The notes under the pieces are model-generated. The model searched no databases. It was given only the letters and a program-made list of their open reading frames with translations, and had not been told where the DNA came from. Source: Thermococcus sp. (GTDB lineage Archaea > Methanobacteriota_B > Thermococci > Thermococcales > Thermococcaceae). From it: a DNA stretch of 56,850 nt. Shown here in pieces: positions 44,801 through 48,486 of the stretch. The stretch is taken from assembly GCF_026988555.1 (NCBI RefSeq), contig NZ_JALSLB010000036.1, forward strand, positions 1 through 56,850, given 5' to 3'. Within the stretch, counting starts at the first letter, position 1. Each line of letters begins with the position of its first letter. The translations under genes and the position numbers were made by a program.

Positions 44801-44928
44801 AAGAATCACCGAATAAACTGGATGTATTTCGTATAAAAGCTTAGCGTTTCGATGATTATCGAGAAGCTTTCAAACCCGCCTAACCTTTTTAAATCCCCCT
44901 TCTCCCTTTTATCCGGGAGGTGGCGGCC

Positions 44929-47361
44929 GTGACCGTCAAGGTCCGCTTTGATAAGGAAGTGAGAGACTACGCCAAAAGTGAGAAGATTAAGGATCAGGTT
45001 CTCAGGCTCACCGAGACGGCTTTAGCTCAGGCGCTTGAGAAGTTCCACAGGAGAATGATAATCATAGAAGGGGACACACTGAGGAAGGCGGAATTAGCGG
45101 GAATCCTGGCCGGCGCATCGGCCCGGGTTCTCAGGGATGTCCTGGATGAGCTCAAGGAGAAAAGGCTGAGGGATGAGAGTGAGGATAAAATTGAGGTCCT
45201 CTACGCGACGGACGCGCTCGGCGAGGATACCTTTGGAAGGAAGCGCTACGAGGCTTTCAGGAAGCACTTCGACCTTTTGGCAGGGGGTGCCGAGGTAAAG
45301 GCGGTTACCTTCAAGCACACCCGCGACATCCTCGGAAGGACGTACGACCTGCTCGTCCTTGATATGAGCTACGATTACTTCCCCAACGACCTTGGTAGGA
45401 TTATCGAGACCGTCCGCGGCGGAGGACTCATCTTCATACTCGCCCACCCATTCGAGAAGTGGAAGAACATGTGGACGGGCTTCCACAAGAGCCTCGTCAC
45501 GCCGCCCTACACGATAGACGACGTCAAGAAGCGCTTCAACAGGCGCCTCATCAGGAAGTTCACCGAGCATGAGGGCATCTACATCATCACCGAGAACGGA
45601 AAGCTCAGGAAGAAGCCAAAGAGGAACAAAACTCAGGCAAAGATCAGAGCGAGGAAGGGCGTTGAGATTCCCGAGGAGACTATCTTCCCGCGCGAGCTCT
45701 ACGAGATGGCCCTCACCGAAGGGCAGGTTGAAGTCCTTAAGGCCTTTGAGGGTCTGGTTGAGGAGGAGGGCATGCTTGTCCTCACCGCTGACAGGGGCCG
45801 TGGAAAGAGCGTCTCCGTTGGAATAGCCGCGATCGGACTCGCAGTGGCGCTCAAGAAGAGAACCAGAATAGTCGTGACTGCCCCCGAGCCGGAGAACGTC
45901 CAGGCCCTCTTCCGCTTCGCCAAGAGGGCCTTAGAGAGGCTCGGGTTCAAGCCGCACGTCGTCGAGGAGAGGGGCCTCATCAAGGAGCTCTACGCGAGGA
46001 AGATCGGCCTCCGCTATTATCCCCCCGCTGAAGGCTACAAAAAGACCGCCGACCTGTACATCCTCGATGAGGCCGCCGGAATCCACGTCCCGATACTCCA
46101 CAGGTACCTCAGCAAGCCGCGTGTGGTGTACTCCTCCACCATACACGGCTACGAGGGAGCGGGAAGGGGCTTCTCGGTCAAGTTCCTGAAGAGGGCCAGG
46201 GAGAAGCGCTCCTTTAAGGAGCTCCACATGGAGGAGCCGATACGCTACGCCGAGGGCGACCCCATTGAGAAGTGGCTCTTTGACGTCCTCCTGCTCGATG
46301 CCGAGCCAGTTGAGCTTACCGATGAGGACTACGAGCTCATAAAGAGCAAGGAGGTCTACTTCGAGGAGCCCGACCTCGACGACTGGTTCGAGAACGACAG
46401 GGAAGACCTCAGAAACTTCGTCGGCATCTACATTTTAGCGCACTACCGCAACAGGCCCAGCGACGTTGCCCTGCTCGCCGATGCGCCCCACCACAGGGCG
46501 AGGGTTCTCCGCCTCAAGAACGGCAAGATAGTTACGGCGATTCAGATAGCCGAGGAGGGCAACATACCCAAGAAGGTCATCGAGAAGATGGCGAAAGGCT
46601 ACAAGCCGCGCGGCAACATAATCCCGGACATGATGGTCAAGCACCACATGGCGAAGGAGTTCGCGAAGCTGAGGGGATACAGGATAGTTAGAATTGCCAC
46701 CCACCCGGACGCGATGGACATGGGACTTGGAAGCAAGGCGCTGGAGCTCCTTGAGAAGGAAGCGAGGGAGAAAGGCCTCGACTGGATAGGCTCGGGCTTC
46801 GGTGCGAGTGAAGAGCTTGCCCGCTTCTGGGTCCGGAACGGCTTCGCGGTGGTGCACCTCAGTCCAGCCCGCAACCCGGTCAGCGGTGAGTTCACCGCGA
46901 TAGTCCTCAAGCCGATAAGCGAGAGGGCGAAGAAGATCATCAAGAAGGCCAACGACGAGTTCCGCATAAGGCTGACGGAGTGGCTGGGCGATACCCACAG
47001 GGAGCTTGAGCCCGGGATAGCGCGCTGGCTTTTCGAGACGCCCTTCGGTGAGGCCGTGGATTATCCGGTTTACCTCACTGACGTCCAGAAGAAGAGACTG
47101 GACGCCTTCACGGGCAAGGTTCTCACTTACGACACCGTGCTTGACTCTGTCAAGCCGATAGTGAAGCTCTACTTCCTGGACGGCTGGATGAAGCCCTACC
47201 TCGACGAACGCCAGATAAAGCTGCTGATCTACAGGGTCCTTCAGTCTCACAGCTGGGAGGAGACGGCGAAACTCATAGACAGGACTGAGACCTTCACGAT
47301 GATAGAGGTGCGGGACATCATTAGAGGGCTCTGGTACTACTACAAACGGGTAATGAAATAA
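44929..47361 (+). CDS. tmcA: RNA cytidine acetyltransferase (TmcA/Nat10 type)
   Basis: An 810-residue enzyme that makes N4-acetylcytidine in RNA. The order is an N-terminal domain with DUF1726 (VLYATDALGEDTFGRKRYE), an RNA helicase-like ATPase with the P-loop TADRGRGKS and DEAAGIHV, a GNAT acetyltransferase domain (IVRIATHPDAMDMGLGSKALELL, with acetyl-CoA binding), and a C-terminal tRNA-binding region. In Thermococcus kodakarensis this enzyme acetylates rRNA, tRNA and mRNA widely at CCG sites. GTG 44929 follows GGAGGTGG at good spacing and is preferred over GTG 44920. A TATA-like CTTTTTAAATC lies near 44890. Confidence 0.95.
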   Translation: MTVKVRFDKEVRDYAKSEKIKDQVLRLTETALAQALEKFHRRMIIIEGDTLRKAELAGILAGASARVLRDVLDELKEKRLRDESEDKIEVLYATDALGEDTFGRKRYEAFRKHFDLLAGGAEVKAVTFKHTRDILGRTYDLLVLDMSYDYFPNDLGRIIETVRGGGLIFILAHPFEKWKNMWTGFHKSLVTPPYTIDDVKKRFNRRLIRKFTEHEGIYIITENGKLRKKPKRNKTQAKIRARKGVEIPEETIFPRELYEMALTEGQVEVLKAFEGLVEEEGMLVLTADRGRGKSVSVGIAAIGLAVALKKRTRIVVTAPEPENVQALFRFAKRALERLGFKPHVVEERGLIKELYARKIGLRYYPPAEGYKKTADLYILDEAAGIHVPILHRYLSKPRVVYSSTIHGYEGAGRGFSVKFLKRAREKRSFKELHMEEPIRYAEGDPIEKWLFDVLLLDAEPVELTDEDYELIKSKEVYFEEPDLDDWFENDREDLRNFVGIYILAHYRNRPSDVALLADAPHHRARVLRLKNGKIVTAIQIAEEGNIPKKVIEKMAKGYKPRGNIIPDMMVKHHMAKEFAKLRGYRIVRIATHPDAMDMGLGSKALELLEKEAREKGLDWIGSGFGASEELARFWVRNGFAVVHLSPARNPVSGEFTAIVLKPISERAKKIIKKANDEFRIRLTEWLGDTHRELEPGIARWLFETPFGEAVDYPVYLTDVQKKRLDAFTGKVLTYDTVLDSVKPIVKLYFLDGWMKPYLDERQIKLLIYRVLQSHSWEETAKLIDRTETFTMIEVRDIIRGLWYYYKRVMK

Positions 47362-47449: not shown

Positions 47450-47962
47450 ATGGCGGGTGGAAGTTGGGAAAAGATAGTTTCGATAACCAAGGGTGGCATG
47501 AAGAGCATAGGAATGATGAAAAAACGTATAGGTCGCGGAAAAAAGATAGCACTGCTTATAGATGGGCCAAACATCCTCAGGAAGGAGTTCGGGATAAAGC
47601 TGGAAGATATAGTTGAGGCTCTCGAGGGCATAGGAGACATCAGGGTGGCCAAGGTTGTCCTCAACCAGTACGCCCCCCAAGGACTCATAGAGGCTGTGTC
47701 CAACCAGGGCTTTGATGTTGCTGTTGTCTCCGGGGAGACGGGGGTAAAGCTGGCCGTGGAAGCTATGCGTGAGATTTACAATCCACACATAGACGTCATC
47801 GCGCTGGCCACACGCAACGCGGAGTTCCTCCCGGTCATACTAAAAGCTAAGGAAAAAGGAAAGGAGGCGGTGGTCATAGGGATAGAACCCGGGTTTTCGG
47901 TGGCCCTCAAGCATGCCGCCGATTACACCATAACGCTGGGGGAAGGCGGTGAGGGGCGATGA
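47450..47962 (+). CDS. NYN-domain protein, degenerate paralogue
   Basis: A 170-residue NYN/PIN-like (LabA/DUF88, TIGR00288) protein. The first acidic motif is intact (LLIDGPN, D38), but the following metal-binding sites are lost compared with the next gene: GDTDVRV is GETGVKL here (Asp to Gly98), and TRDADF is TRNAEF (Asp to Asn123, Asp to Glu125). It is therefore predicted to be a poor or inactive nuclease. A basic N-terminal stretch (MMKKRIGRGKK) may bind RNA. GGTGA is five bases before ATG 47450. Its TGA overlaps the ATG of the second paralogue (ATGA), and part of the DNA (about 40 bp near 47650) is identical to the second gene. Confidence 0.85.
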   Translation: MAGGSWEKIVSITKGGMKSIGMMKKRIGRGKKIALLIDGPNILRKEFGIKLEDIVEALEGIGDIRVAKVVLNQYAPQGLIEAVSNQGFDVAVVSGETGVKLAVEAMREIYNPHIDVIALATRNAEFLPVILKAKEKGKEAVVIGIEPGFSVALKHAADYTITLGEGGEGR

Positions 47963-48486
47963 AAGAGACCCTCTTTAAGGTTCTTAGAAGGGGAGAGAAG
48001 GAGACCAAACCCCCGGAGGAGAAACCTCCCAAGCCCAAGATTAGGAAAGATATAGGCCTGATAATCGATGGGCCTAATATCCTCCGGAAGGAGTTCGGGA
48101 TAAAGCTGGAGGACATCATGGAAGCCCTTGAAAAAGTTGGGAAAGTACGCATAGCCAAGGTTGTCCTCAACCAGTACGCCCCCCAAGGACTCATCGAAGC
48201 CGTAGTCAATCAGGGACTTGAACCGATAATCGTTGCTGGGGATACCGACGTCCGGGTGGCGATCGAGGCCATGGAGATGATTTACAGCTCCGACGTTGGG
48301 GTCATCGCACTGGCGACCCGTGACGCGGATTTCCTGCCGATAATAAACGAGGCAAAGAGTCAGGGAAAGGAAACCATAGTAATTGGGGCGGATCCAGGTT
48401 TTTCGGTGGCCCTTCAGAACGCGGCCGACTACGTTATAAAAATGACGAGCCGTGGAGATGCTGAGAGGAGTCCGAATGGTTTTTAA
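47959..48486 (+). CDS. NYN-domain nuclease, catalytic paralogue
   Basis: A 175-residue NYN-domain protein of the LabA/DUF88 type. All expected acidic positions are kept: D37 in LIIDGPN, D95/D97 in GDTDV, and D122/D124 in TRDADF, a set that coordinates metal in PIN/NYN RNases. The N-terminal 30 residues are charged and proline-rich (KETKPPEEKPPKPKIRK), unlike the first paralogue. Translational coupling to the degenerate copy by a four-base overlap suggests a hetero-oligomer in which only this chain cuts RNA. The RNA substrate is unknown. It is followed by a cation exchanger gene. Confidence 0.87.
   Translation: MKETLFKVLRRGEKETKPPEEKPPKPKIRKDIGLIIDGPNILRKEFGIKLEDIMEALEKVGKVRIAKVVLNQYAPQGLIEAVVNQGLEPIIVAGDTDVRVAIEAMEMIYSSDVGVIALATRDADFLPIINEAKSQGKETIVIGADPGFSVALQNAADYVIKMTSRGDAERSPNGF

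Follow-up and report, generated by a model that had tools for sequence, protein, structure and literature searches.

The window analysed here, a stretch of 56,850 nucleotides of Thermococcus sp. DNA, carries two overlapping genes, A and B, that encode paralogous NYN proteins of the TIGR00288 family. The pocket of B is built from the five aspartates typical of this family, four of which are replaced in A, and this difference is fixed in every Thermococcaceae genome in which the pair was read. The two proteins probably form a heteromeric NYN RNase, in which B would be the catalytic subunit and A a pseudo-nuclease partner. A naturally evolved pair of an active and a dead subunit, in a widespread euryarchaeal NYN family, would offer a clean system to understand why PIN-like nucleases need a second subunit that does not cut, and the genetic tractability of T. 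kodakarensis makes each subunit directly testable. In the literature no mention of TIGR00288, TK0755 or TK0756 was found, nor anything on the NYN pair.

Both proteins match the Pfam NYN domain (PF01936) and belong to TIGR00288, with whole-protein scores of 200.1 bits (A) and 209.6 bits (B) against a curated cut-off of 178.45 bits; an alignment of 139 residues shows 65% identity between them. As the original prediction stated, the genes overlap by four bases, an ATGA in which the start codon of B meets the stop codon of A (Table 1). Such translational coupling is general: B starts at or before the stop codon of A in 86 of 88 pairs and exactly at −4 in 51, counts that depend on a heuristic choice of start codons, which is least certain in genus g3. 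No RNA family, promoter or terminator signal above chance was found at the locus of the pair.

Table 1. Positions in the window of the NYN gene pair, its pocket codons and conversion-prone tracts, and the upstream gene.
Feature	Position	Strand	Remarks
tmcA (tRNA/RNA cytidine acetyltransferase)	44920..47361	+	directly upstream of A, same strand
Gene A	47450..47962	+	170 aa NYN (TIGR00288) protein, active site replaced; presumed non-catalytic partner
Gene-conversion-prone tract in A	47564..47698	+	equivalent of B codons 38-82
A codons E96-T97-G98	47735..47743	+	equivalent of D95-T96-D97 in B
A codons N123-A124-E125	47816..47824	+	equivalent of D122-A123-D124 in B
ATGA overlap	47959..47962	+	start of B, stop of A; translational coupling
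Gene B	47959..48486	+	175 aa NYN (TIGR00288) protein, five-Asp set intact; presumed catalytic subunit
Gene-conversion-prone tract in B	48070..48204	+	codons 38-82
B codons D95-T96-D97	48241..48249	+	Asp invariant in 88/88 B and 20/20 single-copy relatives
B codons D122-A123-D124	48322..48330	+	Asp residues invariant

The pocket of B comprises D37, D95, D97, D122 and D124, and the equivalent residues of A are D38, E96, G98, N123 and E125. The sequence had previously been read correctly for D37, D97, D122 and D124 of B and for the Gly, Asn and Glu at the last three of these places in A, but the further replacement of D95 by E96 had been overlooked. Three aspartates are absolutely conserved in NYN proteins, namely D14/D92/D115 in VPA0982, D358/D426/D452 in MARF1 and D13/D118/D143 in a Bacteroides fragilis NYN protein (PMC11346440). 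The motifs 'GDWDV...SGDGDF' of VPA0982 (2qip) align with 'GDTDV...TRDADF', and through this alignment the trio maps to D37, D97 and D122 of B. All three residues are found in 88/88 B proteins, as in catalytic NYN ribonucleases, whereas the 88 A proteins keep D38 but invariably carry G98 and N123. Three acidic residues (D38, E96 and E125) remain in or near the pocket of A, which could through them keep some metal binding or activity.

A search of 115 genomes of the class Thermococci detected TIGR00288 in all 12 genera. Among the 94 genomes of the Thermococcaceae, which represent six genera, 89 possess both A and B, five possess neither and none has a single gene. Eighty-eight pairs were fetched and read, and the pair of the 89th genome (G022) was read separately; in 89/89 the pocket is D-E-G-N-E in A and all Asp in B. 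The active-site changes, noted in one genome, are conserved in every pair read: E-G-N-E is invariant in the 89 Thermococcaceae A proteins, and a complete Asp set occurs in 0/89, an outcome that goes against refutation of the original prediction. One apparent loss of D37 in A results from a frameshift near codon 42 in a largely complete genome (L050:4068-4600, minus strand), with the aspartate present in the other frame; a sequencing error or a recent lesion may be responsible. Outside the Thermococcaceae, each locus read in the class holds a single copy, and all five aspartates are kept in 20/20 of these relatives. The pair-less genomes were considered as natural knock-outs and rejected as such, since four are only 73-82% complete and the fifth (G097), 96% complete, also lacks the gene that normally adjoins the pair in its genus; incomplete assemblies or a missing locus therefore provide no evidence of gene loss. 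Since the two genes are neighbours, linkage accounts for part of their co-occurrence.

The active site of A had been described as decayed, a description that does not fit the selection acting on this gene. Nei-Gojobori dN/dS values, obtained from 67 moderately diverged genome pairs, are 0.024 for A and 0.026 for B, and 51% of A columns and 54% of B columns are invariant. Since A is as constrained as B, selection maintains its altered pocket, which was exchanged a single time and kept from then on, and a decaying pseudogene is ruled out by dN/dS together with pocket invariance. Given that roughly every second column is invariant in any case, the four invariant pocket columns are by themselves modest evidence, and the equal constraint over the whole protein is the stronger point. 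Strict co-occurrence (89 genomes with both genes, none with one) is accompanied by constraint on the presumed inactive gene, as would be expected of an active/inactive pair.

Long identical stretches of DNA had been attributed to recent duplication or gene conversion. One exact run of 41 nt (codons 66-79) does exist in the window, where A and B are 68% identical over the domain at the DNA level, and exact runs reach 64 nt among the pairs, but they are due to conversion and not to a recent duplication. In all six genera A falls into one clade and B into another, both in trees of the N-terminal part and in trees of the C-terminal part, and a wider tree from which the pocket columns were excluded gives SH-aLRT support of 98 for A and 96 for B. 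The duplication is thus older than the Thermococcaceae. Conversion was assessed in 68 dereplicated pairs at four-fold sites, by comparing A with B of the same genome and with B of a GC3-matched genome. Over codons 38-82, base sharing is 0.515 within genomes versus 0.352 between matched genomes (z = 13); over codons 83-162 the excess is weak (0.392 versus 0.340), and within codons 95-100 and 122-128 no conversion signal was detected by four-fold site sharing. The excess of synonymous sharing and the exact runs show that gene conversion still acts to keep the first half of the domain alike in A and B, sparing the active-site changes as the original prediction had supposed. Pocket segments may either escape conversion or lose converted variants to purging. 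The pair is an example of gene conversion that again and again makes one half of two paralogues alike, with the functional halves kept distinct by selection.

The fixed differences between the two proteins have a particular distribution. Residue sets of A and B do not overlap at 16 of 133 columns, 11 of which lie in segments 95-107 and 122-134, that is, in the loops of the pocket and in the pair of helices that comes after them. The corresponding hypergeometric p-values, 5e-6 for all columns and 8e-4 without the four pocket columns, are indicative only, since the segments were picked after inspection of the list. Charge is reversed between A and B at exactly three columns, 106, 131 and 134: the charges at these positions are −,+,− in 20/20 single-copy relatives, +,+,− in 88/88 A proteins and −,−,+ in 83/88 B proteins. 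This mirror-image pattern is newly described here. It leaves no complementarity between 106 and 131 within either paralogue and preserves it between A and B, a pattern expected when a self-associating protein turns into an obligate heteromer; judging from the topology of a PIN-like fold, the helices that hold the three positions would be expected to lie against a single face of the sheet. Positions 106, 153 and 154 (His) have also become basic in A, which would suit contact with RNA.

These features may be explained by the following model. The ancestor would be a single-copy protein, probably self-associating, whose gene was duplicated in tandem, after which two helices would have taken opposite charges, disfavouring A-A and B-B and favouring A-B association. 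B would supply the cluster of metal-binding aspartates and cut RNA. A, retaining the fold and the first aspartate without two of the three conserved in characterised NYN nucleases, would not cut but assist, by binding RNA and/or by completing the active site of B in trans, like the dead secondary PIN of engineered Regnase-1 dimers. An active/inactive heterodimer is supported by the strict co-occurrence of the genes, their coupled translation, purifying selection of equal strength and the mirror-image charges, and we infer that this association is obligate, as originally proposed.

Regnase-1 (ZC3H12A) offers the nearest functional parallel. The PIN domains of this RNase depend on forming head-to-tail dimers, and when the secondary subunit is a dead D226N/D244N PIN, it restores the activity of partners mutated in basic residues (PMC4772114). 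By motif position, D226 and D244 would correspond to D97 and D122, so that A may be viewed as the natural counterpart of a dead secondary PIN, serving an active primary PIN as proposed for A and B; Regnase-1 is, however, a homo-oligomer with an engineered dead subunit, while A is a natural separate gene. Archaea have split an RNase before: in the (alpha beta)2 type of the archaeal tRNA-splicing endonuclease EndA, a duplication led to one catalytic and one structural subunit (PMC6379350). The fold and chemistry of EndA are unrelated to those of the NYN pair. Among PIN domains, SMG5 and SMG6 likewise combine one domain without the acidic residues and a relative that keeps them, but these eukaryotic nonsense-mediated decay factors are not known to be encoded as a pair.

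The closest solved fold is that of the human MARF1 NYN domain. A model of A predicted from 38 sequences (pLDDT 85) adopts a NYN/PIN-like fold, with MARF1 NYN (6fdl) as its strongest PDB match (E 2e-6, TM 0.65/0.72) and no other PDB match of comparable strength. A sequence search of solved structures with B alone returned chance matches only, and the single-sequence model of B, of low confidence (pLDDT 61), was used for topology only. MARF1 NYN has equivalent catalytic aspartates but differs in being one domain of a large multi-domain protein and in being monomeric in solution (PMC6294520), which counts against a heteromeric A/B enzyme.

Other Euryarchaeota mostly possess a single TIGR00288 copy with all aspartates, in contrast to the coupled pair with one replaced pocket. 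In a sample of 295 genomes from the phylum that includes Archaeoglobi, Methanosarcina and haloarchaea, the matches listed above the cut-off are single-copy except in one genome, which has two copies of equal score. In the class Methanobacteria, 24/152 genomes score above the cut-off, 14 of these with two unlinked copies. The second copies of the Methanobacteriales read DDDND or DDDNE in 13/14 cases and DEDDD in one; loci L212-L214 and L242-L254 accordingly show TRNADF or TRNAEF instead of TRDADF, unlinked to the intact copy. The DEDDD copy (L255:2755-3486, plus strand, genome G259) is basal to the other second copies and may represent an intermediate or a different fate. A single Methanobacteria copy with TRGADF (D122G), at L235/L259 in genome G139, has no intact partner detected in that genome. 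The tree places the Methanobacteriales duplication apart from that of A and B, and the Methanobacteriales apparently duplicated the gene separately. An alternative in which A and the second copy are ancient paralogues is disfavoured by their separate clades and by a log-likelihood 32-37 lower when they are joined, although the AU test against joining is borderline (p 0.057 and 0.045). D122N was probably fixed twice, which would favour a useful non-cutting paralogue over an accident. The charge swap of A and B was looked for in the Methanobacteriales second copies and not seen; that the intact and the second copy are unlinked in the Methanobacteriales and lack the swap argues against a heteromer.

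Three other explanations of the pair deserve attention. A may be a dedicated inhibitor of B, antitoxin-like or dominant-negative, that restrains a potentially harmful RNase; the order of the genes, with the non-cutting gene first in a single operon with coupled translation, and the reversed charges, which suit heteromeric binding, would agree with such a role. Yet the pair is neither mobile nor patchy, as toxin-antitoxin and defence systems are, but near-universal in the Thermococcaceae (89/94 genomes) with both genes under equally strong constraint, single-copy relatives live without any inhibitor, and a PADLOC search for defence systems gave no match for A and, for B, only a weak hit to part of a NYN model (2.7e-5). 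We consider an inhibitory function unlikely. The same low probability is given to A being a nuclease whose metal site has been rebuilt (D38, E96 and E125 with N123) and which has another substrate or chemistry; this would make the operon one of two enzymes. All 88 A proteins carry the new acidic residues E96 and E125, a constancy that simple loss of activity would not demand; against this, G98 and N123 stand in place of two of the three aspartates common to characterised NYN nucleases, a D-to-N change at the equivalent site is a standard means of inactivation (Regnase-1 DDNN, with equivalence by motif alignment), and the second copies of Methanobacteriales have fixed D122N too.

Still more doubtful is the idea that A and B act separately, sharing only a transcript, with A a stand-alone RNA-binding protein and B an RNase. 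The unlinked Methanobacteriales copies do illustrate that a D122N paralogue can exist apart from the gene of its partner, but the mirror-image charge changes, the overlap of the genes (86/88) and the clustering of fixed differences on two helices point to mutual adaptation. The heteromeric RNase with a pseudo-nuclease subunit is the reading we prefer. A fuller version, more tentative and falling somewhat short of an even chance when all its parts are taken jointly, would combine an obligate heteromer that requires its natural pseudo-nuclease subunit, an electrostatic pairing code at 106/131/134 that prevents self-pairing, a first half of the domain in which conversion is tolerated, unlike in the active-site segments, and a parallel first step, D122N, after the separate duplication in the Methanobacteriales. 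If it holds, the parallel D122N suggests that the TIGR00288 RNase repeatedly gains from one dead subunit.

The gene tmcA, known in T. kodakarensis (TK0754) for its role in thermotolerance (PMC6393311), adjoins the pair in 67/88 cases and in four of the six genera. It was rejected as a fixed functional partner and placed outside the core unit, since it is missing beside the pair in genera g3 and g4. The intact Methanobacteriales gene lies just upstream of UPF0425/SelA-like and RNA 3'-terminal phosphate cyclase genes (L261:2933-5827 and L257:2972-5670); the cyclase, two genes away, is a mild hint towards RNA processing. Two further TIGR00288 sequences stand apart: an Archaeoglobaceae-like gene from a Thermococcaceae assembly, where it sits on a small contig (L120, genome G112, contig C77) and is probably a contamination, and a divergent long-branch protein of 'Thermococci archaeon B88_G9' (L168:2763-3317, plus strand), which falls outside the rest of the class.
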